Positions 7,311 to 64,000 of a stretch of 64,000 bases of DNA are shown one piece after another (within the stretch, counting starts at the first letter, position 1; each line of letters opens with the position of its first letter). The notes beneath the pieces were generated by a model, which was not told where the DNA came from, made no database searches, and saw only the letters and a list, made by a program, of their open reading frames with translations. A program made the translations under genes and the position numbers. The stretch is from Aphrocallistes beatrix (taxonomy: Eukaryota; Porifera; Hexactinellida; Sceptrulophora; Aphrocallistidae): positions 4,751,723 through 4,815,722 of the forward strand of contig OY725496.1 in NCBI GenBank assembly GCA_963281255.1. The letters are read 5' to 3'.

Positions 7311-7395
7311 CAGTTGTTATCATTTGAGATACAAATACCAAACTAACAACAACTAACAACAACCAAACAGTAAAACTAACAGATCTGCAATTCCA

Positions 7396-19158: not shown

Positions 19159-19563
19159 TTCAACTCAGTAACCATCCTGGGATATTATACTGATTCAGGA
19201 ATTTAGTCGAATAAAACTATAAAAATGCATTTCAGTTTTAAAAAATGTTTTAAAAAGATTGGCAAGTAGTACTATGTTCTCTCTAATTTATCACTACACA
19301 GTTCTGTACTAACCACACGTAACAATTGCCATGATGATGAAGATAGTTGAGGCATTTGTTGGATGCTTGCTTCAGCATATGCGTACATTTTTGCAGTTCC
19401 GACGGAACAGTTCTGTAATCTAATTACACTTTATCTCACAATGGTGTTACATCATTATGTTTAATTTGTAGAAAAGACAGAATCAAAAACGGTGGATTAT
19501 TCTAGGTTTAGGCATTACTTTCTTCCATTACTTATTTGATATTAATAATATTGTTGTTAGATA

Positions 19564-20646
19564 ATGGCTACTGCAAACCCTGATAATATTCTAGAAAATG
19601 AAGAGTTGGTTCGAAAAGAGCTGGAATTCTATCTAAATGCGGAAACTCGTTCATACGATCGCTCAGTTCTATTTATAGGGATTACTGGCCAGGGCAAGAG
19701 TTCTCTCTGCAACTTCCTAATGAAAGAAGAGAAATTCAAAGTCGAAGATTCGATGATGTCTTGTCCCGAGCCTTCCAAGCAAGAATTAACCAACCTCAAG
19801 GGTAAGAATTATTTGTTGGTTGATGTCCCTGGTGTTTGTGATACGGAACGAGACCCAAAAGAAGTTCTCTCAGAACTTGTGAAAACTTTCTTTTTCGTGA
19901 GGAAACAAGGAATTTCTGCAATCGCGATTATGATTAATCCGAATCAGAAAATGACAACTGAACACTACGAGGCTCTTGTGGATTTTTTGGGAAGGATTTC
20001 ACCTGATCTCTGGGAACATGTGATTGTTGTGTTTACACACGAAAAACAAACAATAAGGAAACATAAATCTGGCGATGAGTACATTACTAAAATGTTGCAA
20101 AATACCAATTGCCCAAAATTTCTTAAATTTGTTTCAGAGAAATGCAAACACCGTTTTTTACACGTGGAATGTGAAACTTTACCAGAAAATGAGCAATACT
20201 GGGAAAAGAAAATTTCAGATTTCACTGAATTTGTAGAATCTATAATGGCTAAAAACGGTCATTTGGAAACAGAAATGATGAATAAAATCGATCAAAAATA
20301 TCTAGAACTCATTGAATTGAAGAAACAAAAAGAAGATTATGATAGACAGCTTGAACTTATGCGAAAAGACCCGATAAGATTTAAAGCTGAAATAATACGG
20401 GTAGAAAAGTTACAAATAGAAACTATCAGTTCAATGTCAGCCATAATGACAACTCTGAAAGGTATAGTTCTAGCATCTTTAGGCCTAGCGATTCTGGCTG
20501 ATATACTTGGATTAGGAATTGTGGCTACTGCAGCTGTTGCAGCTGTTGCAACTGTTGGAGCTGTTGGAGCTGCTATAGTTATTCCAGTGGCGGTTATAGG
20601 CATTTTTGTATTTGGGATGAAGATCAGAGACCACTTTCGTGACTAA
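19564..20646 (+). CDS. AIG1/GIMAP-like GTPase, copy 3 (diverged)
   Basis: A 360-residue paralogue of the GTPases at 13193 and 16367, more diverged than they are from each other. The P-loop GITGQGKS, the DVPG G3 motif and FTHEK are kept. The C-terminal hydrophobic segment is longer: an in-frame expansion of short Ala/Val/Gly-coding repeats (nt about 20526-20575) adds roughly a dozen residues before the conserved IPVAV block and the basic RDHFRD tail. Charged residues in the helical stretch are partly exchanged. The start is at the conserved ATAATGG after an acceptor-like TTGTTGTTAG. It lies in the third tandem unit, with the TTAA/TATA/GAAANN module upstream. Likely a membrane-anchored GTPase; substrate and partner are unknown. 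Confidence 0.82.
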   Translation: MATANPDNILENEELVRKELEFYLNAETRSYDRSVLFIGITGQGKSSLCNFLMKEEKFKVEDSMMSCPEPSKQELTNLKGKNYLLVDVPGVCDTERDPKEVLSELVKTFFFVRKQGISAIAIMINPNQKMTTEHYEALVDFLGRISPDLWEHVIVVFTHEKQTIRKHKSGDEYITKMLQNTNCPKFLKFVSEKCKHRFLHVECETLPENEQYWEKKISDFTEFVESIMAKNGHLETEMMNKIDQKYLELIELKKQKEDYDRQLELMRKDPIRFKAEIIRVEKLQIETISSMSAIMTTLKGIVLASLGLAILADILGLGIVATAAVAAVATVGAVGAAIVIPVAVIGIFVFGMKIRDHFRD

Positions 20647-26643: not shown

Positions 26644-29283
26644 CTAGGGGCTCTCTAAAATTGCTTTTGCCACAGCTAATCCGGTTTTGATACCAATGTC
26701 CACTACTGTCTTAACCTGACTAGATTCCTTAACTCCAGTAGCACAGAATTTGGCAAAATGTTCACAGTTTTTGAACGCAAGACTGTACTCTCCCCACTCA
26801 TCCGGATTTTTGTGGTAGTAGATCGCTGTCTTGACTATCTCTCTCCCAGAACGAGGATTTTTTACCCTAGAAACATCGGAAGCAAATTATATAAATAGCG
26901 ATTTCAGACTTTTCCCTATTTACGTAGGTCATTTCATAAGTACTGAGCCGTGATCTGTATTCAGAAGTTAGTCAAAATATACTATTTTCGATTTGTCCAT
27001 TGTATAGCTGAGGGGATCAGCTTTCGATTTGCATATAGGATTGTTGTGATAAAACAATTATGGTGATTGGTACGTTCGATTTATATACATGGTTTAGGTG
27101 ACTGTTGGAAAATTGGAATTTCCCCATTGAAAATGGCTTAGAAATGAATTTGGTGATTTTTTTTTGAATTCGTGGAATAAGATCATTAAAAGGCCAAATA
27201 ATTAGGAACATATGTGTGATGAAGTAAACGGGAGGTGTTCAGTACAATAACCTGTGATAGAAAGTTATTATGCAACTTTACGTGGATTTTTTCCCAATTT
27301 TCTCCCCCTAAAAATGGGACAAAAGTGGTAGTACGAGGGGTGCCCGATAAGTTTTTAGCCTTGATTCGAAAACAGCATTATAATAGAATGCATTATTATA
27401 ATTGTTCAAAATACTCTCCTCCAGCTTTAATACACTTGTCCATTCTGCAAAACCAACTATCAAAAGCTTCGGCGAACTCATTTTCTCGGATGTCCTCCAA
27501 AGCCTCTGATAATGCTGACCGCACTTCATCATTGCTGCTGAAAACCCTCCCCTTCAACTTCTTCTTAATACGAGGAAAGAGCCAGAAGTCACATGGAGCT
27601 AAATCTGGGCTGTAGGGTGGGTGAGATAACTCCTCGAAGCCAGTTTCTTCAATAAATTTCCTTGTTTTCAGGGCCTTATGTGAACTTGCATTATCATGAT
27701 GCAGCAGTAAACCCCTTGTCCCATCTTCTGGTCGCATTTTATGAACATTTTGAATGAGTTCTGGGAGGCAACTAGTGGTGTACCATTCTGAAGAGACTGT
27801 TTTTCCACTCTCTAGTGCAACTACTGCACGAATACCTTTAGGATCAAAGAATATTGCATACATTTGCTTCTTAGAATACTGACTTTTCCTAACTTTTTGA
27901 GGGGGAGGTTCACCTATTGGAGTCCACTGACGGCTCTGCTCTTTGGATTCTGGGTCATAATGATAAATCCATGTTTCATCACCCGTAATCACTTTGGAAA
28001 CCAGAGGAGAAGTGCCTTTTTTGAATTTTGACTTCATTTTCTTGCACCAATCAATTCGGGCTACTTTCTGCTCAGGTTTGAGCAAATGAGGAATCCACCT
28101 TGCACAGACTTTTGTTAAGTGTAGAATTTCGTGTAGGATGAATTGGATCACATCATTACTGATACCCAACTCGTACTGAATCTGTCTATAGGTTATGTGC
28201 TTATCATTAAGTACCAACTTCTCAATTGCGCTGATGTTCTCTGGGGTCGAAGCAGTCAACGGCGACCCTGGTCTAGGTTTGTCAGTAAGGTCAAAATTTC
28301 CTCTTCTAAACTCTCTGTACCAGTTTTTTACAGTAGCAAGAGATGTAACATCGTTACCGAAAGCTTGTATTAACTGTTGGTAACAATCATCAATTGTTTT
28401 ATCCATTTTAAATTGAAAAAGAATAATTGCCCGAATTTGCTCTTTTGTGAGGATAATATTTTCAGTAATATTTGCCTGAGCCATCATACAAAATGTAGCA
28501 AAACTTCAGAAAAATATATAGTAGAGAGCTAGGATTTACAGAGTCAGTTAGTAAAGTATCGAGTTATAAGAAAAATGTATGGTTCGTTAATAATGACTTA
28601 ATATATGTTCAAGGCTAAAAACTTATCGGGCACCCCTCGTATACCAGTTCATAAACATTTTATTCCCCAGCCTAAAACCATAATGCTACAAATAAATCAA
28701 TATTTAAGGGGTTTTTGATAGTAGAATTTAATGGAAGGATCAGTTTTAATCCAAATTTGCTCAGAAATGAAATACAGCCTTAGGGAACTCAAAATTCACG
28801 TTTGAAGGCAGTATCCTAAACTGATGTACTTAAATTGGATGTAGGAACCACAAAAAGTATCCTATCACAGTAATTCTGTATGCAAATCGAAAGCTGATAA
28901 CCTCAGCTATACAATGGGCAAATCGAAAATAGGATAATTCCACTAACTTTTGAAAACAGATCACGGCTCAGTACTTATGAAATGACCTAAGTAGAAAGAG
29001 AGAGATTCTATATCCAAATATATCAAACGTTTGCTCTGTATTACTTAAAAAAGCTGACTCACTTCTCCTTTGAGACTTCCAATCCAGCTGCAAATTTATC
29101 CAAACTGCACTTACGAACACCAAACTCTCCTGAAAAGTCAATCACTGTGTCATCCCCGATGTAAACTCCGTAATGAAAACCTATCTTGTTTGAGGTGGTG
29201 TAATTAGTGGATTTTCCTGCAGAGCCATCCATCTCTCTATAAATGACATCCCCCGCTTCGAATCCACTCTGCTCATTAGCCAT
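26644..29283 (-). CDS. LRAT/PLAAT-like (NlpC/P60-fold) protein, two exons
   Basis: Exon 1 is 29063-29283 and exon 2 26644-26866. The donor is GTGAGT, the acceptor TTTCTAG, and the phase matches, giving 147 residues. This is an H-rev107/LRAT-type domain. It starts with a GD motif (residues 11-12), then HYGVYIGDD with the candidate catalytic His38, and ends with NCEHFAKFC containing nucleophile Cys108. Vertebrate members are phospholipid acyltransferases/phospholipases or lecithin:retinol acyltransferase. The second conserved His of many members (VxH) is Asp here (VIDFSG), so activity is uncertain. No strong C-terminal membrane anchor is visible, unlike PLAAT proteins. The 2.2-kb intron is filled by nested transposons. 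Confidence 0.82.
27334..28639 (-). mobile_element. mariner transposon, apparently complete
   Basis: A 1.3-kb element with terminal inverted repeats of about 30 bp (CGAGGGGTGCCCGATAAG at the left, its complement at the right). It is bounded by TA target duplications at 27332-27333 and 28640-28641. It contains one intact transposase frame. It is nested in an older inverted-repeat element and inside an intron of a host gene on the same strand. The ends are nearly perfect copies of each other, indicating a young insertion. Confidence 0.92.
27396..28487 (-). CDS. mariner transposase (D,D34D)
   Basis: A 363-residue, uninterrupted Tc1/mariner-superfamily transposase that cuts and reinserts its own element at TA sites. 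An N-terminal paired helix-turn-helix DNA-binding region spans about residues 15-125. WIPHLL corresponds to the WVPHEL motif. The catalytic triad is complete: D170 in GDETWIYHYD, D265 in HHDNASSH, and D300 in SPDLAPCDFWLFP. Exactly 34 residues lie between the second and third Asp, the mariner signature. Length is as expected (about 345-365). Start at 28487 (MMAQ; the second ATG is equally possible). No stop codon or frameshift is seen, so it may still be active. Confidence 0.95.
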   Translation of the reverse strand: MMAQANITENIILTKEQIRAIILFQFKMDKTIDDCYQQLIQAFGNDVTSLATVKNWYREFRRGNFDLTDKPRPGSPLTASTPENISAIEKLVLNDKHITYRQIQYELGISNDVIQFILHEILHLTKVCARWIPHLLKPEQKVARIDWCKKMKSKFKKGTSPLVSKVITGDETWIYHYDPESKEQSRQWTPIGEPPPQKVRKSQYSKKQMYAIFFDPKGIRAVVALESGKTVSSEWYTTSCLPELIQNVHKMRPEDGTRGLLLHHDNASSHKALKTRKFIEETGFEELSHPPYSPDLAPCDFWLFPRIKKKLKGRVFSSNDEVRSALSEALEDIRENEFAEAFDSWFCRMDKCIKAGGEYFEQL

Positions 29284-32574: not shown

Positions 32575-33503
32575 TAGGAGCTGCACTAAAGATTGGATAG
32601 AAGGAGATAGCTCTACTCTCCATTAGCTCAGCTCTGAATGGGATGAATAGTCTCAACACAGTTTATGTGGTAGAAGAGCTGTGAATTAGAATTGATAACG
32701 AGTGCACCTGACTATTGCATCAGCGAGGAATTTGCTGAAGGGACATATTCTCACATTTCCATTAATTAACAGTTAATGTGGTTGTAGTAAGGTTGAGAGT
32801 TCTGTGATCCAAACTCTCTTTAATCTATCCGATTTCTATATATACTGACAATCTGAGAATAATCCATCTTCACATAAACATAAACAACAATAACAACAGC
32901 TTTAACAGCAAACAAAACAATCAATCATTACACGAAATCAATTTTCGAAAGCTTCAAAGCCAAACTGAACTCAATTGATACATTGAATCATATCATTACG
33001 ACGGTTCAGTACAGAAACACACGAATAGAGACCTCGCTTCAATCATTGAAAAGTTAGTTGTTCTCTTGAATTTAACTTAAAATTAATTGCTTTACGTTAA
33101 TATACAAAATCTGTTTTGAAATTCTAACTCAAATTCTCAACGATTCGTGGAACTCTCGAAATTACTAAAATCTATTTTCTTGATGCTATACTGCTAGTAC
33201 AAACTTTAACTATTATTTACTTAAAACTATCAATTATTGCAAAAAAGTAACATTTTGATTATTCATTTCTCTTCCTAAATCTTAAAAAATATATATTCGA
33301 AATTTTCCAGTTTTTTGTTCCTTTTAATCCTTAAAAAAATACAGAAAGATTCAATTATTTTATTTTTCGAATAGAGTTTTTGAATTTATAAAATTGTACA
33401 AAATCTTTTAAAATGCGTGAATTTATTAATGAATAGAATTGCATTCGATTCGATAGACATAGCATAGATATGAGACATAATATTAACACACAATTGACAC
33501 ACA

Positions 33504-33621
33504 TTACACTTGCATGCCCATAGCGAAAGTGAAAGTAAATTGAAAGTGAACTGAAAGTGAAAATGAAAATGGGGTCATTTCTATTTATACCTTTGACCCC
33601 AAAGGCATTGCAGGGTTTTAA
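33504..33621 (-). promoter_or_regulatory. TATA + GAAANN module, left NLR upstream region
   Basis: This 118-bp segment shares a core of about 50 bp with the modules upstream of GTPase copies 2 and 3, in reverse orientation. TATTTATA is at 33582-33589 (TATAAATA on the minus strand), with tandem GAAA-containing repeats at 33524-33570 including GAAAGTGAAAATGAAAATG. It ends at TTAA (33618-33621) and starts at TTAC (33504). At the matching place in the right arm (about 63149-63156) there is just ATTAAAG, an uninterrupted TTAA, so the module was inserted into, or lost from, one arm. It lies about 2 kb upstream of the left NLR and its TATA box faces away from it. Confidence 0.55.
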
Positions 33622-34118
33622 AGTAACTCAATTCATTCTGAATCGATTCTACACTGAGCTACTAAGTACACCATGGATGCTAGTGAACTATCATTACATC
33701 AATTCTTCATTATAGACCATGGAAACCAATAATTTCTATTTGTGGCTGTCTTATTTAACAATAATACCATGGATACTTATATTTAATTAATTAAACCAAC
33801 TAATGGCCTGGGGTCCGTTCTATTTATAGCATGGACTCCGCATTTCTAAAGTTTCCCCGCTCAAAATGACTTAACCGGAAATGAGTTAGCAAAATCCATG
33901 GTGCTTTGTTAACAATAGTAATACTACACAATGACTTAACAGTCTTTATCATCAAATGACTTTTCCAAAATTTAAATATTTTCATTACTCCGGAATTCTA
34001 CTCAGCTACCTTCCATTTCTGTTTAAAACTTGTTTGAAAATTATAACTTAAATGTGTTATTCATGAATTTTGTCATTTTTAAGGCAATTTTGCCCATTTT
34101 GCTCAATTATTATTGTTA

Positions 34119-34278
34119 TACAGGTGACTCCGCTTAATCGGGACTATTTTATCTCGATTAAGCGAAGTTCTCAATTAACCGATGAAATTTAGTATTAGCT
34201 TCTATGTATGGGAACCATTCCGTTCCTGGAGACTTGTCTCAATTAAGCGGTTGTCTCGATTAAGCGGAGTTGACTGTA
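34119..34278. repeat. pogo-type MITE
   Basis: A 160-bp element starting TACAGGTGACTCCGCTTAATC and ending GCGGAGTTGACTGTA, with TA target duplication. Inside are further partial copies of the 'aattaagcgg' word. The equivalent place in the right arm (about 62665) is uninterrupted. It lies upstream of the left NLR 5' UTR intron. Confidence 0.8.
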
Positions 34279-34877
34279 TTAATTTTGAAGAAATAGAATT
34301 ATGACGCTTATATAAATTCAGTTCAATAATTGGCTAAATAGGAAGCTACATGGAGTAATAGTCAGGTAGTCCATCTCTATTTCTGTTCCTCTATTGGCAA
34401 TGATCTGTTAATTGAGCAACGAATTTCAGCGTTTAACTAAATTATATTTTTTAAGAATTGTGTAATTTTTCTGAGACACATCACAAATGTGCTTATCAAT
34501 TTTTTATATGTTTTAAGAATATTTTCATTAAAAAAAACCGAGGTTTCTCAGGGAAAATTTGAGTAAATTTGTTCACTTAACAAACTTTCAATCTAACTTT
34601 ACTTTTAAGTTCGTAGTTTAATGATTTTCCCAAACATTTGCAAATAACTTCTAGCAAAATTCCTTAATTTCATGTTTGAATTGTTGTAAAATGTTGTTTA
34701 AAGAACTGAGAGTGAATTTTGATTTGTTAAGGTTTTCTCTGTATTCTAACATCCTGTATGCAATGGGAGAATTAATTCAGCTATCTTTATCGTAACAAAT
34801 ATTTATATTTTCTATTCTATTTTTAGAGTATTTACTTTCAGAATTTTAATCTCAAGACAGAGTACTTATAACTCAAG

Positions 34878-35592
34878 GTAAGAGAGAGAAAGTATTTGTA
34901 CGTTGTTATCTTTGTTAAGTTTCACAATATTCTAAACTGAGTGCTTCCTAACAAGAATTGCAAAGGACTTACATACTAAATGCATTGTAATAACCAAATT
35001 CTATTGTTTAAGCCTATTAGCAACCAATTTCAAGTCACAAGTGTAGATTTTGTACTTCAATTCTGTTCCCTTATTAGCAACTTCGCGTATTAGCAACATT
35101 TTCGCGAACAAAACCTGACTTACTAATAATATTACACTGTATGTTAATTCGTTCGAATGAATTGAGTTAAGGGGAGATTATGAACAGACGAGGTTGTGAA
35201 ATTCTTACATTCCATTGCTGATGTTTTAGAACATATTTACCTTAAGGCAGACACCTAAAATCATCAATAAACAAATATTTGAAATATGTATGTAGATAAA
35301 CCAAAGAAAAATTAAATACTATTTTGTTGAAAGCTTCCTAAATTTCATGATTTTTCTGTAATTTCAGGCATATTTTTTGATGTTTTTCGGTTATACAAGT
35401 AACAGTGAGTATAGATGTACGATGTTACGAGTATTGCGATTCATCTGTAAAACTTTCACAAAATGAGAGCCAAATAAATTGAGCTCAAAACTTTGTGTCA
35501 TGAAAACATCTTTATTTACAAACAAAAAGGAGAAACATTTGAAAATCCCCGGGTTCTGTAGAATTTCCATAATATCGATTAATATATTTTAG
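34878..35592 (+). other. predicted 5' UTR intron of the left NLR
   Basis: A strong donor, ACTCAAG/GTAAGAGAG, is at 34877/34878. An acceptor-like AATATATTTTAG ends at 35592, six nucleotides before the ATG. The right arm has the same donor (62020) and its own acceptor CTTTCTCTATAG (61157). The last about 45 nt of this intron, with the acceptor, belong to the block that differs between the two NLRs. Confidence 0.6.
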
Positions 35593-35598
35593 ATAAAG

Positions 35599-38500
35599 AT
35601 GTCCCACACGTATAACAGAGAAGAAACTCAAACGCTTGAAGAATTTTCCAAACAGTTAACCCGTGATAACGTCACAGTACTGCAGCAATGCCTTCAAATG
35701 CCAGCTGGCATGGCAGAGGACATAGGCGATGATCCTGACGATTTCCTGCACGAGCTGAAGACCTGGGATGGATTTGACCCCGCGTTTTTTCAAAAATCGT
35801 TAGTTGAAATTAATCGATCCGATTTAACCGTACTGGCCAATAGAATTCCATGGATGGGAAGTAGAGAAGTCGTGGTAAGAGAGGAAAAGCCTTCCGCAAA
35901 GTCGTTGTTGAAAATATTACGTAGCGAGTTAGAAAATCGAGATTGGAAACGGATTCTAAGAGCTTTGTCCGAAAATCCGAAAGGCAAAGTTGAGTTTGAG
36001 CAGGCATTCCAAGTGTGCATGGAAAAAGGGATAATCGACAAAAACCTCGAAAATTTGTGTCATATTCTGTCTGACATTGGTCGAGCGGATTTAGCGGGTA
36101 AAATGGAACTCCACATAAGCACTTTCCGTAATCTTTCCGAAAGTGAGTTTCGTCGTGAACTAATTTCTGATCTGGGAGAGGTAGACCCCGACACAATTGC
36201 TCAGATTATCCAATTTTTGAAGGATTATCTGAAAATGCAACATTCCAAAGTGAGTGTCACGTTCGAGAGTGAGAATACTGAGTCCATGGAGCATATCTAC
36301 ACGCCGTTGACCGTTGTAGAGGAGTTCCCTATAGTAGAGGCAGAGTCAGAAGAGTCCAGTCTGAGCGAAATTAGCAGCATTAGGGCCATGGTAGCTAAAT
36401 TGACACATGTGGATGAAGTGGACTTCGACGAAATCCTAGCCACAACCTTTGACTCATTTCCTCAGTTGTGGTTGATGATAGGAAGCCCGGGAAGTGGGAA
36501 GACTTTTCTCTGCAAAAATATTGCGTTTAGATTCGGGATTAGCGAAGTGAGCAATTTCCAATTCGTTCTATGCATCCCGTGTAGAAGTGAGAAGTGGCAC
36601 GAAATGGAAGCCACCAGAAATGATAAGGGTCGCATCGTGACGGGTCAATTTGTCCAGGAATGGCTCGCCATCAGCATGTCCGCATTCTCCAAGTGGTCCG
36701 AGTCCCTCTCCAAACGGCTGGTGGAAACTGACGGAGAGTCCCTGCTGGTCATCATAGACGGGGTGGACGAGTTCACCAAGAAGGTCCCGTTCCAGTCCAC
36801 TCTCCTGAGCCTGATCCTGCGTCGAGGACTCCTCTCCCGAGCGAGCTTCCTCATCACGAGCAGACCTGGTGCATGGTCCCAACTGTCCCACCAGCACGGC
36901 GCCACCTTCCGAGTCGATTCCTATTTCCAGGTGGTGGGGTTCTCTCCTAGCAACCGAGACCTCTATTTCCGAAAGCGAATTCCTAACGAGCAGAAGCTGT
37001 CCGCCGTTCGGCAGCTGCTACGGCGACACGATGAGATTAACCAACTGGCACTCGTACCCGTGAATGCGAGTCTGTTCAGCTCCCTCTTCAACCAGGCCGC
37101 CTCCATCCTCTCCTACACCCTGACGAACCTCTACTCCGAGTTGGTGGTCTACATAATCAGGCGCCAGTTGTCGCGAATGGGTCTAACTGCCTACATGAAT
37201 AATGTGTCGAGCATGTCCGATTTCCACCCGGGCATCCAGGAGTGCTTCCGTGCCATCGGAGAAGAGGCGTACGACGGCGTTTTCGACAGACATTTGACGT
37301 CCAGCAATGCGATCCCTCTCTGCCTGGACGACGGAGATGTGGAGAGTGAGCGTCTCGGTCTGATGGAGTCCTGCATTAAGGAGGTGAAAGTGGGCGAGAA
37401 AGAGAAGGTGTGGACGTTCACACATCTCACAATTCAAGAGTTCATGTCGGCCTTGTTCTTCCGTGCGAAAAGCTGGTCTGACCAATGCGCCATGATTCGA
37501 TACCTCGTTTCCTCCTCTGCCACTTTCTCCATGTTCAAGATGGTGATCCGGTTCTCGTGTGGCCTCTTGAAGGGGAACACAGGCGCCATTATTCCTATTT
37601 TATGCCATAAACTAACACCCACCCCGATACCAATGCATGACATGCCAATGCTCCATCAACTCCACTATAATACGGCACTTGTTGAAGTATCTGATTGGTA
37701 CAAATTCACCTCCGCCTTCCTCATGCTGGCTACCATCATATGCGAAACGAACCCTGAGACCATTCGTAAGCAGTTCTGCTACTACTACGATAAGTATCTA
37801 CCACATCCTCTATACTTCTATTTCCATGGTAGCGTCGTGTGTCCTAACGAGTGGTACTGTTTCGTACAGTCACTGAGATATGTGAGTAGAATCCAACTGA
37901 TCTATATTGATACCGGGTTTATAAGTCCTGAGCAGTTCAGTGAGTTCTTGCATCAGCTCTCTTCCTGCTCTCTCTGCTACCTAGCTCTAGGCTTTGCTTT
38001 TGAGACCTCCTCTTCTCTTGCACGGTACACACGTCTCCTCACCACCACCACTCTGCCACCTGACACTAAAATTAGTATCTACCTACATGAATGTAAACTA
38101 GTAAAGAATGTACAGCTGTTCCGAACCAATCAATTCGTTGGGAGTTTAGGCTTGTATGATTCTAATTGTTCGTTAGAAATGTTGCTCCGACTAACCAATC
38201 AATTCTCTTCGATTGAGAATATTTTTTTCTTTTGGCGCACTTCTGCTAATTCTGATTGGTCCATTCTCCAGCAGTCCATTGGCTATCATCAGGTTACTGG
38301 ACTGTTCATTCAAGATCCTAATGCCTATGCCGTCACTCCTGACTTCTTATCAGGTCTCTCTTCCTTACAAGAGTTGAATTGTAACACCAAATTAGATTCC
38401 TTCGAACTTCTGCCTTCCTTGCAGTCGCTTAGCCGCGTAACTTATCTGCGTCTACTGTCTACTCAGTTCCCTCCATCTAATGAATCCCACAGAGACAGGA

Positions 38501-38979
38501 TAGTCCAGCTTATAAATAGGAACAGCAACTCGTTGAAACATTTAGACTTACCTTTCCTACACTTAGCTGGGTTCCACGACTGGAGTAGTTTCCTCCCTAC
38601 TCTCCATTCCTGTTCCAACCTCGTGTTCCTGTTGCTAACAAACACTAAGTTTCCTCTTCACGACATCAGCTGCTGGTACGAAGCTGTGTCAGCTCTGAGA
38701 TCTCTAGTTTTCTTTGGACTCGTCGCTATCCCTTTACGAGATGAAGGTCTGTGGGTGGTGTGTCACAGCCTCACTCACCATCCTGCCATCAGGAGTTTGT
38801 GGATAGAAAAGTGTGATCTCACTTCGAAATCGTGTCGCACTCTGTCGTGTCTCATCCAGACACTCCCACAGATACGAAAACTAACCATTTATAAAGCTGA
38901 ACTCTTCCGGCCAGACTTCCAACTACAGAGCCTCGTGCTAGCAGCAGAGGAATGCTCTGTCGAGATAGAACTCCGCTAA
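35599..38979 (+). CDS. NLR immune receptor (NACHT-LRR), left copy
   Basis: A 1126-residue single-exon NLR protein. Residues about 8-90 and 100-175 look like two alpha-helical death-fold modules (DED/Death-like: FxxSLxEINRSDL and related), which I cannot classify further. The NACHT domain has Walker A GSPGSGKT (295-302), Walker B LLVIIDGVDEF (382-392) and a TSRP sensor-1 motif. The winged-helix part carries FTHLTIQEF (607-615), typical of animal NLRs. The C-terminal 400 residues contain degenerate leucine-rich repeats. NLRs sense microbial or danger signals in the cytosol and signal through the N-terminal domain. The partner gene at 57771-61151 shares everything after about residue 225 but not the N-terminus. 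Confidence 0.93.
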   Translation: MSHTYNREETQTLEEFSKQLTRDNVTVLQQCLQMPAGMAEDIGDDPDDFLHELKTWDGFDPAFFQKSLVEINRSDLTVLANRIPWMGSREVVVREEKPSAKSLLKILRSELENRDWKRILRALSENPKGKVEFEQAFQVCMEKGIIDKNLENLCHILSDIGRADLAGKMELHISTFRNLSESEFRRELISDLGEVDPDTIAQIIQFLKDYLKMQHSKVSVTFESENTESMEHIYTPLTVVEEFPIVEAESEESSLSEISSIRAMVAKLTHVDEVDFDEILATTFDSFPQLWLMIGSPGSGKTFLCKNIAFRFGISEVSNFQFVLCIPCRSEKWHEMEATRNDKGRIVTGQFVQEWLAISMSAFSKWSESLSKRLVETDGESLLVIIDGVDEFTKKVPFQSTLLSLILRRGLLSRASFLITSRPGAWSQLSHQHGATFRVDSYFQVVGFSPSNRDLYFRKRIPNEQKLSAVRQLLRRHDEINQLALVPVNASLFSSLFNQAASILSYTLTNLYSELVVYIIRRQLSRMGLTAYMNNVSSMSDFHPGIQECFRAIGEEAYDGVFDRHLTSSNAIPLCLDDGDVESERLGLMESCIKEVKVGEKEKVWTFTHLTIQEFMSALFFRAKSWSDQCAMIRYLVSSSATFSMFKMVIRFSCGLLKGNTGAIIPILCHKLTPTPIPMHDMPMLHQLHYNTALVEVSDWYKFTSAFLMLATIICETNPETIRKQFCYYYDKYLPHPLYFYFHGSVVCPNEWYCFVQSLRYVSRIQLIYIDTGFISPEQFSEFLHQLSSCSLCYLALGFAFETSSSLARYTRLLTTTTLPPDTKISIYLHECKLVKNVQLFRTNQFVGSLGLYDSNCSLEMLLRLTNQFSSIENIFFFWRTSANSDWSILQQSIGYHQVTGLFIQDPNAYAVTPDFLSGLSSLQELNCNTKLDSFELLPSLQSLSRVTYLRLLSTQFPPSNESHRDRIVQLINRNSNSLKHLDLPFLHLAGFHDWSSFLPTLHSCSNLVFLLLTNTKFPLHDISCWYEAVSALRSLVFFGLVAIPLRDEGLWVVCHSLTHHPAIRSLWIEKCDLTSKSCRTLSCLIQTLPQIRKLTIYKAELFRPDFQLQSLVLAAEECSVEIELR

Positions 38980-40180
38980 ACAAAGGTAAACTCTGATTTA
39001 TTATTTAATCTTAGAGTCGTCGCTCTAATTTCTAAAACTTTCAATCTAACAATATTTACTCAAATACGGTCAAATAAAAGTTTACTTTTCTAAAAAATCG
39101 GGCATCAGTATTCCCTCTAAGTATTACAAATCTAAATTCTTTCTGTCGGTTTATTTAATATTTCATTGATTTAGAGTTATGAAATTATTCCTATGAAATC
39201 TAATCTAATTAACTGAGAATTTCAAATGTAAATCGTCTGAATCGCTTAGAGAATTCTGTTGCTAATCTTTTTAATCGTGATCTATCACAAGAATGGCAGA
39301 AAGATGGTCGCGAGGAAATAAAATTCACTTTCAATTTGAATCGGTTTCAAACTGAAAATGCTCACTTTCTCACTGTTCTCCTAACGTTTCCGACATAAAT
39401 GCCTACTTCACGCGCTTTAATTTTCAAACATCTCTGATATTTCCTCGCGGCCATCTTTCCGTCAACGCTATCACAAAATCTCTGAGAATATCTCTCTTTG
39501 TGTCTCTTCCTATCTCCGTTCTTTCTCACCTCTTAGCATTCCTATGTCACACTTAGCTATGCTACATCTCTGCTATTGCATCACGTAAGTTTGTAATGAT
39601 TAATGCAGAAGTGTCACGATTTTAACCAATCATCATCCACCACTTTTTGAATGAATTTACGAAAAAAGCGTGTGCATTCCATTGCAGCATATCTGTTGTT
39701 ACCCTGATTAACAGTATATTTGTTTGTATCCTCTAGAGTGACACTTGACACCTCTCTACTTCCTGTCTGCTCACTGCTACTTCCTGTTCTATCTATGCAG
39801 TACATCTCATCCCTATGCTCTCTAACTCAACTAGTTAACTCGTATCGCATTCCAATGCTATTCTGTTGTTGTTATATTCACACATTAAACTCCCTTTCTT
39901 TCAAACTGTTTGTTTACTTATTTACTGGGACACTAAATACACAATATAAACAAATATTAGTTCATAAATAACTGGGATAAGTACAGAATGTTTCATGGTT
40001 GAATTTCTCTTTACACAATAAAGTGCTTACAAGTTTTTGGGAATCATTTTCATGTATAATACCAGTTCTAAATACGTATAGCTATTAGCTCAGTAGTCCA
40101 CTTAACTACGTTCCTCTACCAACTAAGCTGTTTATCTTGGAAACACATTGTGTCATTGGCATTTCATTGCATTGTAAAAT
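38980..40180 (+). other. 3' region of left NLR with likely non-coding exons
   Basis: ACAAAG/GTAAAC follows the stop codon, a possible donor. CACCTCTTAG/CATTCC (about 39535) and GCATCAC/GTAAGTTTG (about 39587) could bracket a small exon, and CCATTGCAG/CATATC (about 39686) another. These are conserved in the right arm (57157, 57045). An inverted-repeat pair (39302-39320 and 39438-39458, 'agatggtcgcgaggaaat' type) forms a MITE-like element here and at 57246-57470. A piece resembling 39670-39850 recurs at 52900-53160 and, shorter, near 55990-56040. No coding frame is supported. Confidence 0.45.
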
Positions 40181-40404
40181 GCAAGTTGAATTTGTCGTTT
40201 TGGTTGCTTTTCCTTGATGAGTCAAGTGTCTCAATTGTTTAACACAAACCTAATAGCAATACGTACGTACATTCAAATGTATTAGCTTTGAAGACAATAA
40301 AATTCCTAATTTTAAGAATATTTCGCTTTTTAATTATTTAACTGAAAAAAGACTGACTCTATAAGCTAGATTACTACTGCATACCACTGGGGCGTATTTT
40401 TAAT

Positions 40405-55600: not shown

Positions 55601-57770
55601 GCTATGCACTGAATGTTAGGAGAAATTGTCACAGAAATCTTACACTCCGTATCTCATTGTAAATGATGGCCATGAAATGTTTACACAAATCTATCAAATG
55701 CTGTCCTCTCTAACTCCATAAATGGACAATTGTGACTTAACTATTCTCTGTGTAGGTCCATCTAATTTAAAAACCGAAATATCACAACTACTTCTGTCGT
55801 CAAATGGCACTAGACTTTATCATCTCTAAAAACTTGCTTGGGCAAAGAACTTAAATAAACTTTCCTATTCTCTATCTAAAAACTCCAAAATCAACTATTG
55901 CAATGGTATATTTTTGCAAAATTTCCATCCTGCAATCTTTTTTAGAAGTAAACAACGAGTTTTCATTCCATCTTGTTTTTCTTGACGAAATCGACGGGAA
56001 ATTCCATTGCAGCGTATCTGTTGCTTACCCAATCGCGATCGAGATACGAGGCAGCTTTTAAAAAAACTCAAATTTAATTGGTTAGTACAATGTATCACTT
56101 ATCTTAGTTACAGTTACTCCTCTAAAGAATTTCCCGTTAATAAACTATTTTCTATGCAAATTTAAACTGATGAGCTTATAAAGTCTAAACTGATGAGCTT
56201 ATAAAGAACTATTAAATTTCAAGACTTCGTTAATGAGTGTAGTACCACGATGTTAGTGTGGGATAGCACTACCATGGGTTAGTGTGTAGAGTTGCCATAC
56301 CAGCTAACACTACGCAATCATGTCTCAGTTCATTAGCACAAGTTCAATATTTAAAATTAGAAAAGAACTTTCATAAAAAGATTCTAATATTTGGATTGAG
56401 TAGATAGAGTTTATGTTAAAGGTGTTGACACTTTGACACTTTTTAGTTGAGTGTTTTTAAATGTGAAGATTTATATTTTATCATGCCATATATACCACAA
56501 CTCTAGTTTTCCAATATTAGCTAGTGAGCACGAATAGTTTAAGAACTTCCATTATACAATGTAATGAAATGCCAATGACACAATGTGTTTCCAAGATAAA
56601 CAGCTTAGTTGGTAGAGGAACGTAGTTAAATGGACCACTGAGCTAATAGCTATATTTAGAACTGGTATTATACATGAAAATGATTCCCAAACTTGTAAGC
56701 ACTTTATTGTGTAAAGAGAAATTCAACCATGAAACATTCTGTACTTATCTCAGTTATTTATGAACTAATATTTGTTTATATTGTGTATTTAGTGTCCCAG
56801 TAAATAAATAAACAAACAGCTTGAAAGAAAGGGAGTTTAATGTGTGAATATAACAACAACAGAATGGCATTGGAATGCGATACGAGTTAACTAGTTGAGT
56901 TAGAGAGCATAGGGATGAGATGTACTGCATAGATAGAACAGGAAGTAGCAGTGAGCAGACAGGAAGTAGAGAGGTGTCAAGTGTCACTCTAGAGGATACA
57001 AACAAATATACTGTTAATCAGGGTAGCAACAGATATGCTGCAATGGAATGCACACGCCTTTTTTCATAAATTCATCCAAAAAGTGGTGCATGATGATTGG
57101 TTAAAATCGTGGCACTTCTGCATTAATCATTACAAACTTACGTGATGCAATAGCAGAGATGTAGCATAGCTAAGTGTGACATAGGAATGCTGAGAGGTGA
57201 GAAAGAACGGAGATAGGAAGATACACAAAGAGAGATATTCTCAAAGATTTTGTGATAGCGGAAAGATGGTCGCGAGGAAAATTCGTCGCTGGGAAATATC
57301 AGAGATGTTTGAAAATTAAATCGCGTCAAAGTAGGCATTTTATGTCGGAAACGTTAGAACAGTGAGAAAGTGAGCATTTTCAGTTTGAAACTGATTCAAA
57401 TTGAAAGTGAATTTTATTTCCTAGCGAAGAAATTTTCCTCGCGACTATTTTTCTGCCATTCTTGTGATAGGTAACGATTAAAAAGATTAGGAACAGAATT
57501 CTCTAAGCGATTCAGACGATTTACATTTCAAATTCTCAATTAATGAAATTAGATTTCATAGGAATAATTTTCAGTCTAAATTAATGAAATATTAAATAAA
57601 CCGACAGAAAGAATTTAGATTTGTAATACTCCGAGGGAATACTGATGCTCGATTTTATCAGAAAAGTAACTTTTATTTGGCCGTATTTGAGTAAATATTG
57701 TTAGACTGAAAATATTAGAAATTAGAGCAATGATTCTAAGATTAAATAATAAATCAGAGTTTACCTTTGT
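55601..57770. other. 3' region of right NLR and MOSPD2-copy promoter region
   Basis: 56558-57770 mirrors the left NLR 3' region, including the inverted-repeat element at 57246-57470 and the likely non-coding exon borders. 56210-56330 mirrors 40655-40750. Near 55990-56040 there is a third, plus-strand occurrence of the CCATTGCAGCGTATCTGTTG segment. No coding frame is supported. Confidence 0.5.
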
Positions 57771-60700
57771 TTAGAGGAGTTGTATCTCGACAGAGCATTC
57801 CTCTGCTGCTAGCACGAGGCTCTGTAGTTGGAAGTCTGGTCGGAAGAGCTCAGCTTTATAAATGGTTAGTTTTCGTATCTGTGGGAGTGTCTGGATGAGA
57901 CACGACAGAGTGCGACACGATTCCGGAGTGAGATCACAACTTGATATCAACAAACTCCTGATGGCAGGATGGTGAGTGAGGCTGTGACACACCACCCACA
58001 GACCTTCATCTCGTAAAGGGACAGCTGTGAGTCCAAAGAAAACTAGAGATCTCAGAGCTGACACAGCTTCGTACCAGCAGCTGATGTCGTGAAGAGGAAA
58101 CTTAGTGTTTGTTAGCAACAGGAACACGAGGTTGGAACAGGAATGGAGAGTAGGGAGGAAACTACTCCAGTCGTGGAACCCAGCTAAGTGTAGGAAAGGT
58201 AAGTCTAAATGTCTCAACGAGTTGCTGTTCCTATTTATAAGCTGGACTATCCTGTCTCTGTGGGATTCATTAGATGGAGGGAACTGAGTAGACAGTAGAC
58301 CCAGAAAAGTTACGCGGCTAAGCGACTGCAAGGAAGGCAGAAGTGCGAAGGGATCTAATTTGGTTACACAATACAACTCTTGTAAGGAAGAGAGACCTGA
58401 TAAGAAGTCAGGAGTGAAGGGATAGGCATTACGATCTCGAATGTACAGTCCAGTAACCTGATGATAGCCAATGGACTGCTGGAGAATGGACCAATCAGAA
58501 ATATCAGAAGAGCGCCAAAAGTAAATATTCTCAATGGAAGAGAATTGATTGGTTAGTCGGTGCAACATTTCTAACGAACAATTAGAATCATTCAAGCCTA
58601 AACTCCCAACGAATTGATTGGTTCGGAACAGCTGTACATTCTCTACTAGTTTACATTCATGTAGGTATATACTAATTTTAGTGTCAGGTGGCAGAGTGGT
58701 GGTGGTGAGGAGACGTGTGTACCGTGCAAGAGAAGAGGAGGTCTTAAAACCAAAGAACAGAGCCAGGTAGCAGAGAGAGCAGGAAGAGAGCTGATGCAAG
58801 AACTCACTGAACTGCTCAGGACTTATCAACTGAGTATCAATATGGATCAATTTGATTCTACTCACATATCTCAGTGACTGTACGAAACAGTACCACTCGT
58901 TAGGAGACACGACGATACCACGGAAATAGAAGTATAGAGGATGTGGTAGATACTTATCGTAGTAGTAGCAGAACTGCTTACGAATGGTCTCAGGGTTCGT
59001 TTCGCATATGATGGTAGCCAGCATGAGGAAGGTGGAGGTGAATTTGTACCAATCAGATACTGCAACAAGTATCGGAGTATACTGGAGTTGATGGATCATT
59101 GGCATGTCATGCATTGGCATCGGGGTGGGTGTCAGTTTATGACATAAAATAGGAATAATGGCGCCTGTGTTCCCCTTCAAGAGGCCACACGAGAACCGGA
59201 TCACCATCTTGAACATGGAGAAAGTGGCAGAGGAGGAAACGAGGTATCGAATCATGGCGCATTGGTCAGACCAGCTGTTCGCACGGAAGAATAAGGCCGA
59301 CATGAACTCTTGAATTGTGAGATGTGTGAACGTCCACACCTTCTCTTTCTCGCCCACTTTCACCTCCTTAATGCAGGACTCCATCAGACCGAGACGCTCA
59401 CTCTCCACATCTCCGTCGTCCAGGCAGAGAGGGATCGCATTGCTGGACGTCAAATGTCTGTCGAAAACGCCGTCGTACGCCTCTTCTCCGATGGCACGGA
59501 TGCACTCCTGGATGCCCGGGTGGAAATCGGACATGCTCGACACATTCTTCATGTAGGCAGTTAGACTCATTCGCGACAACTGGCGCCTGATTATGTAGAC
59601 CACCAACTCGGAGTAGAGGTTCGTCAGGGTGTAGGAGAGGATGGAGGCGGCCTGGTTGAAGAGGGAGCTGAACAGACTCGCATTCACGGGGACGAGTGCC
59701 AGTTGGTTAATCTCATCGTGTCGCCGTAGCAGCTGCCGAACGGCGGACAGTTTCTGCTCGTTAGGAATTCGCTTTTGGAAATAGAGGTCTCGGTTGCTAG
59801 GAGAGAACCCCACCACCTGGAAATAGGAATCGACTCGGAAGGTGGCGCCGTGCTGGTGGGACAGTTGGGACCATGCACCGGGTCTGCTCGTGATGAGGAA
59901 GCTCGCTCGGGAGAGGAGTCCTCGACGCAGGATCAGGCTCAGGAGAGTGGACTGGAACGGGACCTTCTTGGTGAACTCGTCCACCCCGTCTATGATGACC
60001 AGCAGGGACTCTCCGTCAGTTTCCACCAGCCGTTTGGAGAGGGACTCGGACCACTTGGAGAATGCGGACATGCTGATGGCGAGCCATTCCTGGACAAATT
60101 GACGCGTCACGATGCGACCCTTATCATTTCTGGTGGCTTCCATTTTATGCCACTTCTCACTTCTACACGGGATGTACAGAACGAATTGGAAATTGCTCAC
60201 TTCGCTAATCCCGAATCTAAACGCAATATTTTTGCAGAGAAAAGTCTTCCCACTTCCCGGGCTTCCTATCATCAACCACAACTGAGGAAATGAGTCAAGG
60301 GTGGTGGCTAGGATTTCGTCGAAGTTCACTTCCTCCACATATGTCAATTTAGCTACCATGGCCCTAATGTTACTGATTTCGGTCAGACTGGACTCTTCTG
60401 ACTCTGCCTCTACTATAGGGACCTCCTCTACAACGGTCAACGGCGTGTAGATATGCTCCATGGACTCAGTATTCTCACTCTCGAACGTGACACTCACTTT
60501 GGAATGTTGGATTTTCAGATAATCCCTCAGCCTACTACGACACTCTTCCTCCCCCTCACTCTCCCCGCACTCGATTTCATTGGAGAACAAATCGCGGAAT
60601 TCGGTTTTGGTTATTTGCGAGAAAGTGGCACTATACGATGACAGTTGGGACGCTATGTCATTTCGTTTTACCCTTTCCATTAACTCAGAAAGTTCAGTTA

Positions 60701-61151
60701 GGTCCTTGGTTATTAAATTGTTCTCTAAGCACAGCTTAAGCACCTCTCTTGCCTGGATCTTACCGGTTCTACGCGTACTTATTTGCGAAACGATTATTTT
60801 CCATTGTCTGGACGTAACATCGTCTGCTAACATACGAACGAGCGTTTTCACGGATCGCGGTTCTTCGTGTCTCACGGTTTGCTTGGAAGATGGTGTGCAC
60901 AGCCATTCCAGTTTTCCGGCTTTTGCTAGGATGTCACTTCTTCCCATCACTTTCAGTGCATCATGGAACGTCACAGGGTCATAGTCCTCCCACGTTTTAG
61001 CTGTGTTGAGGAAGTCAATTGGATCCTCGATTTCTTCGGCCATTCTCGCTGGGATTTGTAGCGCATTTTTGAGCGTTTCCAGGATGGGACTTGTCAACAG
61101 TTCATCCAATTCGGCGAATGTCTCTACTTCATCCTTGTTGAGTTTTTCCAT
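57771..61151 (-). CDS. NLR immune receptor (NACHT-LRR), right copy
   Basis: A 1126-residue single-exon NLR, convergent with the one at 35599. Its N-terminus (about 1-225) again looks like two helical death-fold modules but shares only roughly a third of residues with the left copy (common points: QxPAxMAE, DFL, KTW, DP, GRSD). From YLKIQHSK onward the proteins differ at only scattered sites. Walker A GSPGSGKT starts at residue 296. Walker B, TSRP and FTHLTIQEF are intact, and substitutions in the LRR part cluster (for example residues 750-980), possibly the ligand side. A 5' UTR intron (61157-62020) is predicted. Both copies look functional. Cytosolic immune sensing is inferred from the family. 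Confidence 0.93.
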   Translation of the reverse strand: MEKLNKDEVETFAELDELLTSPILETLKNALQIPARMAEEIEDPIDFLNTAKTWEDYDPVTFHDALKVMGRSDILAKAGKLEWLCTPSSKQTVRHEEPRSVKTLVRMLADDVTSRQWKIIVSQISTRRTGKIQAREVLKLCLENNLITKDLTELSELMERVKRNDIASQLSSYSATFSQITKTEFRDLFSNEIECGESEGEEECRSRLRDYLKIQHSKVSVTFESENTESMEHIYTPLTVVEEVPIVEAESEESSLTEISNIRAMVAKLTYVEEVNFDEILATTLDSFPQLWLMIGSPGSGKTFLCKNIAFRFGISEVSNFQFVLYIPCRSEKWHKMEATRNDKGRIVTRQFVQEWLAISMSAFSKWSESLSKRLVETDGESLLVIIDGVDEFTKKVPFQSTLLSLILRRGLLSRASFLITSRPGAWSQLSHQHGATFRVDSYFQVVGFSPSNRDLYFQKRIPNEQKLSAVRQLLRRHDEINQLALVPVNASLFSSLFNQAASILSYTLTNLYSELVVYIIRRQLSRMSLTAYMKNVSSMSDFHPGIQECIRAIGEEAYDGVFDRHLTSSNAIPLCLDDGDVESERLGLMESCIKEVKVGEKEKVWTFTHLTIQEFMSALFFRANSWSDQCAMIRYLVSSSATFSMFKMVIRFSCGLLKGNTGAIIPILCHKLTPTPMPMHDMPMIHQLQYTPILVAVSDWYKFTSTFLMLATIICETNPETIRKQFCYYYDKYLPHPLYFYFRGIVVSPNEWYCFVQSLRYVSRIKLIHIDTQLISPEQFSEFLHQLSSCSLCYLALFFGFKTSSSLARYTRLLTTTTLPPDTKISIYLHECKLVENVQLFRTNQFVGSLGLNDSNCSLEMLHRLTNQFSSIENIYFWRSSDISDWSILQQSIGYHQVTGLYIRDRNAYPFTPDFLSGLSSLQELYCVTKLDPFALLPSLQSLSRVTFLGLLSTQFPPSNESHRDRIVQLINRNSNSLRHLDLPFLHLAGFHDWSSFLPTLHSCSNLVFLLLTNTKFPLHDISCWYEAVSALRSLVFFGLTAVPLRDEGLWVVCHSLTHHPAIRSLLISSCDLTPESCRTLSCLIQTLPQIRKLTIYKAELFRPDFQLQSLVLAAEECSVEIQLL

Positions 61152-61156
61152 TATTT

Positions 61157-62020
61157 CTATAGAGAAAGAACGGTGTTAATAAAATGTTTTTTATTGGCTA
61201 ATTTTGGTGTTTGGTGTTTTACCATTGGATTTTCAGATGTTTCTCCTTTTTGTTTGTAAATAAAGATGTTTTCATGGCACAAAGTTTTGAGCTCAATTTT
61301 TTTGGTTCTCATTTTGTGAAAGTTTTACGAATGAATCATAATACTCGTAACATCGTACATCTATACTCACTGTTACTTGTATAACCGACAATGCTTGAAA
61401 TTGCAGAAAAATCATGAAATTTAGTAAACTATTAACACAAAATTGGTTCAAATCTTCTTTGGTTTATCTATAAATATATGTTTATTGATGATTTTATGTG
61501 TCTGTCTTAAGGTAAATATGTTCTAAAACATCAGCAATGGAATGTAAGAAATTCACAACCTCTCATGTCAATAATCTCCCCTTAACTCCAACAATTCATT
61601 CGAACGAATTAACATACAGTGTAATTAACATATTATTATTAGTAACTCAGGTTTTGTTCACGAAAATGTTGCTAATATGCGAAGTTGCTAATAAAGGAAC
61701 AGAATTGAAGTACAAAATCTAAACTTGGTACTTGAAATTGGTTGCTAATAGGCTAACTCCACCTAGAAACAACCAAATTGAAAGAGAATATAGTGGAGTG
61801 AAAGTGTATTCAGACCAGGAAGCGTGAAACTTAATAGTAAGTAGCTGTGGAGCTTTGAGAAAAAATAATTCGTTATTTTGAAAGGTCTTAAACAATAGAT
61901 TTGGTTATTACAATGCATTTTAGCATAATTCCTCTGCAATTCCTGTTAGGAAGCACTCAGTTTAGAATATTGTGAAACTTTAACAAAGATAACAACGTTT
62001 AAATAATTTCTCTCTCTTAC
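61157..62020 (-). other. predicted 5' UTR intron of the right NLR
   Basis: The donor CTCAAG/GTAAGAGAG at 62021/62020 matches the left arm exactly. The acceptor TTTCTCTATAG ends at 61157, five nucleotides before the ATG, and is different from the left copy's acceptor. Homology to the left intron stops about 75 nt before the acceptor. Confidence 0.6.
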
Positions 62021-64000
62021 CTTGAGTTATAAGTACTCTGTCTTGAGATTAGAATTCTGAAAGTAAATACTCTAAAAATAGAATATAAAATATGAATATT
62101 TGTTACGATAAAGATAGTTGAATTAATTCTCCCATTGCATACAGGATGGTTAGAATACAGAGAAATCCTTAACAAATCAAAATCGAAGTTTCAGATATTT
62201 CTTTTGGTAATTCACTCTTAGTTCTTTAAACAACATTTTACAACAATTCAAAAATTAAATTAAGGAATTTTTGTTAGAAGTAATTTGTAAATGTTTTGGA
62301 AAATCATTAAATAACGAACTTAAAAGTAAAGTTAGATTGAAAGTTTGTTAAGTGAACAAATTTACTCAAATTTTCCTCTGAGAAACCTCGTTTTTTTTCA
62401 TGAAAATATTCTTAAAACATATAAAAAATTGATTTGCACATTTGTGATTATAACTTCGCTATAGGATGGTGTCTCAGGAAAATTACACAATTCTTAAATA
62501 ATCTAATTGAGTTAAACGCTGAAATTCGTGACTCAATTAACAGATCATTGCCAATAGAGGAACAGAAATAGAGATGGACTACCTGGCTATTACTCCATGT
62601 AGCTTCCTATTTAGCCAATTTAAACTGAATTTTTAAAAGCGACGGAATTCTATTTTTTGAAAATGAATAATAATAATAATTAAGCAAAAACAAAATTGCC
62701 ATAAAATTGTCAAAATTCATGAATAACACATTTAAGTCAACCAAGTTTTAAATAGAAATGGAAGGTAGCTGAGTAGAATTCCAGTGAAATGAAAATATTT
62801 AAATTTTGGAAAAGTCATTTGATGATAAAGACTTAAGTCGTTGTGTAGTATTACTATTGTTAACAAAGTACCATGGATTTTGCTAACTCATTTCCGGTTA
62901 AGTCATTTTGAGCGGGGAAACTTTAGAAATGTGGGATCCATGCTATAAATAGAACGGACCCCAGGTCATTAGTTGGTTTAATTAATAAACTATAAGTATC
63001 CATGGTATTATTGTTAAATAAGACAGCCACAAATAGAAATTATTAGTTTCCATGGTCTATAATGAAGAATTGATGTAATGATAGTTCACTAGCATCCATG
63101 GTGTACTTAGTAGCTCAGTGTAGAATCGATTCAGAATGAATAGAGTTACTTTAATGTGTGTCAATTGTGTGTTAATATTATGTCTCATATCTATGCTATG
63201 TCTATCGAATCGAATGCAAATCTATTCATTAATAAATTCACGCAATTTAAAAAGATTTTGTACAATTTTATAAATTCAAAAACTCTATTCGAAAAATAAA
63301 ATAATTGAATCTTTCTGTATTTTTTTAAGGATTAAAAGGAACAAAAAACTGGAAAATTTCGAATATATATTTTTTAAGATTTAGGAAGAGAAATGAATAA
63401 TCAAAATGTTACTTTTTTGCAATAATTGATAGTTTTAAGTAAAACAAAAGTTAAAGTTTGTACTAGCAGTATAGAATCGAGAAAATAGATTTTAGTAATT
63501 TCGAGATATTTTTTAGTTCCACGAATCGTTGAGAATTTGAGTTAGAATTTCAAAACAGATTTTGTATATTAAAGTAAAGAAATTAATTTTAAGTTAAATT
63601 AAGAGAATAACTAACTTTTCAATGATTGAAGCGAGGTCTCTATTCGTGTGTTTCTGTACTGAACCGTCGTAATGATATGATTCAATGTATCAATTCAGTT
63701 CAGTTTGGCTTTGAAGCTTTTCGAAAATTGATTTCGTGTAATGATTGATTGTTTTGTTTGCTGTTAAAGCTGTTGTTATTGTTGTTGTTTATGTGAAGAT
63801 GGATTATTCTCAGATTGTCAGTATATATAGAAATCGGATAGATTAAAGAGAGTTTGGATCACAGAACTCTCAACCTTACTACAACCACATTAACAGTTAA
63901 TTAATGGAAATGTGAGAATATGTCCCTTCAGCAAATTCCTCGCTGATGCAATAGTCAGGTGCACTCGTTATCAATTCTAATTCACAGCTCTTCTACCTCA

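Follow-up and report, generated by a model that had tools for sequence, protein, structure and literature searches.

Paired receptors are represented, among others, by the CEACAM and CD300 pairs. For Siglec-11/16, the available excerpt of the source describes one ligand-binding part on two signalling ends, which is kept by gene conversion (PMC5701461). According to excerpts of further papers, N-terminal repeat types combine with different NACHT groups in the zebrafish NLR-B30.2 genes, where partial gene conversion also occurs (PMC4852459), one part of the fungal NWD/het-D/het-E NLRs undergoes concerted evolution (PMC1805685), and domains are recurrently exchanged in NLRs at a plant integration locus (PMC5819176). 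For receptors of fish and fungi, separate histories of signalling and sensing parts have been described before, in other forms.

Here we analyse two NLR genes on a 64,000-nucleotide stretch of the genome of the sponge Aphrocallistes beatrix (contig OY725496.1), hereafter called the window. The initial annotation knew of no described system of this exact form, while taking domain shuffling in NLR families as established; as far as the excerpts cited above go, the zebrafish NLRs (PMC4852459) and Siglec-11/16 (PMC5701461) are in fact comparable.

Results

An abrupt 5' cassette separates two near-identical NLR genes

The two NLR genes lie on the arms of an inverted duplication (Table 1). Both reading frames are uninterrupted over 1,126 codons and hold all modules in one frame, rather than on separate exons. 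The window also contains three tandem AIG1/GIMAP-like GTPase genes (13190-20643; 87-93% DNA identity), two of which were scanned and matched PF04548 with E 3.9e-18 and 2.4e-20, an inverted pair of NmrA-like genes that are 95% identical (4569-8328), and a Mos1/mariner-type transposase frame open over 369 codons (27399-28505).

Table 1. Features of the inverted NLR duplication, in window coordinates.
Feature	Position	Strand	Basis or remark
Left arm of inverted duplication	32669..40187	+	self-BLAST; further separate matches out to 44632
Right arm of inverted duplication	56544..63997	-	self-BLAST; further separate matches from 53571
Left NLR ORF, 1126 aa: probable tandem DED, NACHT (residues 292-463), LRR-like C-terminus	35599..38979	+	Pfam NACHT
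Right NLR ORF, 1126 aa: probable tandem DED, NACHT (residues 293-464), LRR-like C-terminus	57771..61151	-	Pfam NACHT; Foldseek
Left cassette, type I: last 44 nt of likely intron, acceptor, ATG (35599), probable tandem DED	35549..36221	+	39-60% identity to right arm
Right cassette, type II: likely intron tail, acceptor, ATG (61151), probable tandem DED	60526..61227	-	alignment, DED HMM, predicted helix bundles
Likely 5'UTR intron of left NLR, donor AAG/GTAAGAG, acceptor TTTTAG/ six bases before ATG	34878..35592	+	sequence
Likely 5'UTR intron of right NLR, acceptor CTATAG/AAATA-ATG	61157..62020	-	sequence; donor as in left arm and T
ATCTGAAAATCCAA at intron-side border of right cassette	61225..61238	-	14-bp match between the two borders
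ATCTGAAAATCCAA at body-side border of right cassette	60507..60520	-	14-bp match between the two borders

Base-by-base MAFFT alignment of the arms revealed 82-100% identity per block of 100 aligned columns outside the cassette, most blocks ranging at 92-100%; in the 5' flank, several blocks contain gaps. Within the cassette, seven 100-column blocks covering 35563-36245 reach 39-60%. This confirms the diverged block of about 0.7 kb that the initial annotation had seen between near-identical NLRs. The near identity itself holds for flanks and bodies at the DNA level. As proteins, the bodies share ~96% of amino acids and are not identical. Both borders are abrupt and not gradual, as had been claimed. 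Upstream, identity extends up to TGAAAATCC (35548 in the left arm, 61227 in the right arm) and is then lost; on the body side, two-state segmentation places the change at nt 623/624 of the coding sequence (window 36221/36222). The intron donor AAG/GTAAGAG is identical in the left arm, the right arm and a third copy, T (see below), and the left acceptor reads TTTTAG/ATAAAG-ATG. Judged by these signals, the upstream border likely lies inside a 5'UTR intron, 44 nt before the end of the left intron, in agreement with the initial proposal.

Of two explanations offered at the outset, cassette replacement and conversion sparing the signalling domain, both are kept. We favour the former, which we consider modestly probable: cassette and body would have recombined independently between paralogues, and a type I cassette in the right arm would have been replaced by a type II cassette. 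The latter is possible and in our judgement the less probable of the two. It supposes old, separate type I and type II NLRs, whose NACHT-LRR bodies (and in the trio of left arm, right arm and T also the 5' flank) were overwritten through repeated gene conversion or break-induced copying, sparing a cassette too diverged to convert. Matching flanks on either side of abrupt borders speak for replacement; under homogenisation, conversion in the trio would have to have acted upstream and downstream of the cassette and to have taken in ~2.9 kb of 5' flank.

Further features of the borders are in line with replacement. The 14-bp ATCTGAAAATCCAA is found as an exact match at both ends of the right cassette, as compared to a corresponding match of 7 bp in the left arm; a match of 14 bp occurred in 8 of 19880 random window pairs. 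In the left arm and in T, the corresponding sites read differently from either copy, and the repeat therefore probably arose on the right-arm lineage. That it is a trace of microhomology joining is a guess. Moreover, 42 of 45 family rows have an acceptor-like site 3-15 nt upstream of a Met close to the start, as compared to 1571 of 9000 control positions. This test is more lenient for the rows, since any Met within 25 residues was tried in each.

Both cassettes probably encode tandem DEDs

The NACHT domain was recognised by PF05729 above the Pfam cut-off in both proteins (E 1.2e-19 left, 2.2e-20 right). Pfam gave no LRR match in the window NLRs. Models of the right protein and of T display alternating strand/helix repeats from about residue 739, mostly at pLDDT over 80, and the best Foldseek matches of the right-protein model by E-value were NLRC4, NLRP3 and NOD2 (~1000 columns, E 5e-19), with TM-scores of only 0.16-0.36 among the matches listed. 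On the basis of these models, the C-terminus is very likely an LRR. Between the left arm and T, dN/dS in the LRR-like part is 1.67 (Fisher p=0.27), and we do not claim diversifying selection there.

For the N-terminal pieces, the DED HMM PF01335 yielded E 1.5e-4 (left) and 6.8e-6 (right), both below the curated cut-off, as were the values for the family members P0086 and P0103 (E 2.1e-7 and 3.5e-7). Four of eight family members scanned gave no DED match at 1e-3; P0086, P0096, P0103 and P0112 carry PF01335 in the precomputed annotation column. The predicted structure of the right protein has six plus six N-terminal helices in two bundles, and so has the AF2 model of T, a close copy standing for the left protein, with one helix split. 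These bundles are modelled mostly at pLDDT 75-87, the whole models at pTM 0.55 and 0.57, respectively. No DED chain appeared among the 50 Foldseek matches listed for the right-protein model. In sequence searches of solved structures, the right cassette found no match and the left cassette nine weak ones, the best at E 0.021 to a design construct.

The motif R-x-D-[LIVM] is a hallmark of DEDs, and it is present in both bundles of both window proteins. Across the family, whose N-terminal types are defined below, this motif occurs in DED1 of 8/8 type I, 1/27 type II and 9/10 other rows, and in DED2 of 7/8, 26/27 and 10/10, respectively. The right arm is the sole type II row of the 27 that keeps R-x-D-L in DED1; in the left protein the DED1 motif is located at residue 73. 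The two cassettes are homologous, with 31-32% amino acid identity. Thus, different kinds of signalling domain at the two ends, as initially suggested, were not found: both blocks look like tandem DEDs and probably represent one domain class in two old versions. Signalling by both proteins would rely on contacts of their DEDs, with DED adaptors or caspases as probable partners, and activated NLRs would expose clustered DEDs that recruit DED partners.

As to the genomic surroundings, 58 caspase-domain matches were counted in the genome, pieces of split genes included, and one such frame (G000:C10:4747528-4748202) lies ~3.5 kb left of the window. There are also many separate DED-like frames of ~200 aa. 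On contigs C17 and C13 such frames occur within ~10 kb of caspase domains, and two frames of 201 aa on C7 (G000:C7:815717 and 826460) precede NLR N-termini of like orientation by ~1.7 and 2.5 kb; the C7 frames are possible cassette sources or partners.

A third copy and a pseudogene carry the two cassette types elsewhere

The phenomenon is not confined to a pair, as had been thought, as a third copy and a pseudogene also exist. The third full copy T (L009) is located on the same contig, ~140 kb to the left, and has the left cassette at 96% amino acid identity together with the same body and flanks; it carries the type I cassette along with its intron tail. The pseudogene, which contains stops, is on contig C1 (L072; G000:C1, 8807500-8815500) and joins a right-type N-terminus to the same body. 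It resembles the right cassette at 81% of amino acids over residues 27-110. At the DNA level, identity is 92% in one 233-bp segment, which argues for replacement, and 82.5% over 537 aligned sites of nt 1-620, as compared to 45% between the right cassette and the left arm. Upstream, the pseudogene is unlike the trio except for one 105-bp piece, and an 84-aa piece of it matched no Pfam family. Its DED region (L072 4393-5533) holds 17 copies of a 69-bp unit, 37 bp of which are exactly antisense to the coding sequence of the NLR's own LRR region. The array reads as a fragment of the far end of the gene that was inverted and amplified within the front end. Upstream of the pseudogene, a minus-strand frame starting at 2384 is also repetitive and encodes a related peptide.

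Assembling a near-identical inverted duplication is difficult, and an assembly artefact or collapsed haplotypes might be suspected. We regard this as very unlikely. T independently has the left version elsewhere on the contig, the right version is also present on C1, and the left arm, right arm and T differ by ~2-7%, with indels. In addition, P0001 (the right version) and P0002 (matching T) are each listed on a 379,208-base contig, distinct in size from the contig used here.

Three-way site counts of left arm, right arm and T are nearly star-like in flanks and body. When the pseudogene serves as outgroup, left and right are grouped by 12 body sites, as compared to 4 for right and T and 5 for left and T (binomial p=0.021). 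The cassette change would therefore fall after the split of left and right, which favours replacement. Likewise, the left and T cassettes differ at 22 of 629 sites (3.5%; dN/dS 0.24), which is within the 2.2-4.8% of body segments; type I thus looks inherited with the locus, and the right cassette appears as the odd one. However, synonymous divergence between left and T is higher in the cassette (11/134) than in the body (21/655; p=0.014), which fits homogenisation of the bodies and counts against replacement. Right-specific sites common to the pseudogene number 0/7 up to nt 1700 and 5/22 beyond, and their absence near the border also speaks against replacement.

N-termini and bodies have conflicting trees

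In the N-terminal tree (45 rows), type I comprises the left arm, T and six others and is neither resolved as a clade nor rejected as one (p 0.41). Type II comprises the right arm and 26 others with support 98, which is 86 in a larger tree; the right cassette branches as the sister of all others of this type, with the same support values. In the body tree, the trio forms one clade (support 100) that is sister to the other bodies of its clade. A trio clade is rejected by the N-terminal data (p-AU 0.0024). So are the C7 group (7e-103) and, weakly, the C2 group (0.035), both groups having been chosen after seeing identities. Conversely, body data reject type I as a clade (p 5.5e-6), and the body tree calls for at least five changes of type over the 35 rows counted. 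N-terminal type is thus not tied to body group, and these comparisons support separate histories of N-terminus and body. We had also considered whether types I and II are older than the families in other genomes; this is unsupported, as the N-termini of 50 of 51 other rows form a clade of their own (support 98), with the long row P0065 apart.

The tree conflict and the repeated type changes argue for replacement. On the other hand, the N-terminal types are deep and each occurs in several body groups, and the bodies group partly by contig, as expected for homogenised bodies. The direction of replacement may also be the reverse: type II is possibly native and type I the newcomer, given the type II outgroup pseudogene, the place of the right cassette as sister to the remaining type II N-termini, and that of the trio body as sister to the remaining bodies of its clade. 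A further explanation, fast evolution of the N-terminus in place after duplication under diversifying selection, would be in line with N-termini that are on average more diverged than bodies. However, the low dN/dS of the left and T cassettes, the abrupt intronic border with an intron tail included in the block, and the N-terminal data rejecting the trio argue so strongly against it that we consider it ruled out for practical purposes.

Mismatch of body and N-terminus recurs across the family

The family was represented by 46 rows (one of them a duplicate) out of 94 NACHT matches listed in the genome, chosen by similarity to the cassettes and NACHT and giving 1,035 pairs. Among the 45 NLR genes, 45 of 990 pairs are at least 90% alike in the body and less than 70% alike in the N-terminus. 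The mismatch hence recurs in other families fetched from the genome, and the window pair is not special in the way first assumed. N-termini more alike than bodies by more than 5 points were found in 0 of 1035 pairs. This is consistent with homogenisation of bodies and counts against replacement, as nothing points to a recent import from another body family; such an origin of the right cassette is unsupported.

The pair at C2:480k/519k is 99% alike in the body and 49% in the N-terminus. Most of the ~850 nt past the stop is common to this one pair, with one gapped block at 56% directly after the stop. It provides a second case for replacement, and also for homogenisation, as body and 3' flank are common and the 5' end is not. 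Further examples are the most different C7 sub-groups (body 91-95, N-terminus 30-45), C20:798k and its relatives (93-97 and 60-65) and much of the C13 group (93-96 and 57-98). In nine mismatch pairs outside the trio that were profiled, the 5' flank is also unrelated, apart from two far bins of one pair. Among the cases profiled, the trio is therefore alone in having matching sequence to either side of the cassette, a singularity that weighs against replacement. In the other upstream stretches fetched, the trio's 5' flank is matched in short pieces only, which weighs against homogenisation.

The last border before nt 900 falls at nt 546-756 in 43 of the 45 mismatch pairs; the remaining two have their main border at nt 634, and identity dips once more over 10 nt at 854-863. 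The pairs are not independent of each other, and their selection by identity partly forces the border position. A short dip near nt 1166-1182 occurs in two pairs, the N-terminus is mosaic in three, and in other pairs borders are found elsewhere, e.g. at ~nt 1080 for L016/L017. Among 105 related rows of a protein collection, bodies are at least 80% alike in 825 pairs, and in 600 of these the N-termini are lower by at least 20 points. The N-terminus is higher by at least 5 points in 31 of 5,460 pairs. Part of the 600 may reflect a rate difference, because N-termini are more diverged on average. These rows are the 120 full-length relatives listed (207 found) minus 15 resembling genes fetched from this genome; some may still be this genome's own, as only about half of its NLRs were fetched.

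Discussion

Taken together, our data are best accounted for by exchange of a 5' cassette, and for the copying mechanism, its direction and the donor we infer the following scenario. The cassette would consist of the 3' end of the 5'UTR intron, the start codon and a tandem DED of ~200 aa, and would be exchanged ectopically between paralogues. One border would lie in the DED-NACHT linker, within homologous sequence, and the other could lie anywhere in the intron ending just before the ATG without harm to the gene; the 5' join would be tolerated because the intron adjoining the start codon absorbs it. A type I tandem-DED NLR would first have been duplicated in inverted orientation. Subsequently, the type I cassette of the right copy would have been swapped for a type II one. 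This would have been copied from a type II relative that shared the body and whose lineage may now be represented by the C1 pseudogene. The donor would have been joined by homology on the body side and perhaps by microhomology on the intron side.

The locus offers a clear natural case of an NLR whose signalling and sensing ends have separate histories, with readable borders and without exon borders between the modules. The survival of such exchanges may have a simple reason in the intron adjoining the start codon. Should type I and type II DEDs differ in signalling, the family would lend itself to tests of how NLR output is rewired.

Exchange of a tandem-DED cassette at a start-codon intron was not described in the titles and abstract starts of the matches listed from open-licence PubMed Central. 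Excerpts of papers on the NLRs of Dysidea avara (PMC12909245) and Sordariales (PMC12258605) contain no matching case. According to another excerpt, the NACHT/NB-ARC genes of Trichoplax sp. H2 are devoid of LRRs (PMC6321704), and they do not fit the genes described here. As far as the excerpt of the plant study goes, the domains integrated there are exogenous and are not the signalling N-terminus (PMC5819176). The fungal NWD/het-D/het-E genes, as excerpted, are alike in that one part is homogenised across loci while other parts have their own history; there, however, WD repeats are exchanged (PMC1805685), whereas here the NACHT-LRR body stays with its 3' flank in the single pair examined. The zebrafish NLR-B30.2 genes likewise form a large NLR family with mixed N-terminal types, in which part of the gene is homogenised and the rest is left. 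According to the excerpt, their N-terminal peptides, NACHT exon, LRRs and B30.2 are on separate exons (PMC4852459). Here, in contrast, DED, NACHT and LRR-like part are in one frame with a likely intron on the 5' side only, and the types are probably two versions of one tandem DED.

With paired receptors, the locus has in common that a near-identical, putative recognition part is joined to different, putative signalling ends. The excerpted account of those receptors reports opposite signals and tested glycan binding by Siglecs (PMC5701461), while in the present case both ends are DED-like. We therefore put forward only as a speculation, and one we think rather doubtful, that the family is a cytosolic counterpart of paired receptors: the sensor body would be kept alike across loci, two DED versions with different outputs would be maintained (type I with the R-x-D-L contact motif in both DEDs, type II without it in DED1 in 26 of 27 rows), and exchange at the start-codon intron and the DED-NACHT linker would allow any sensor to be paired with either output.
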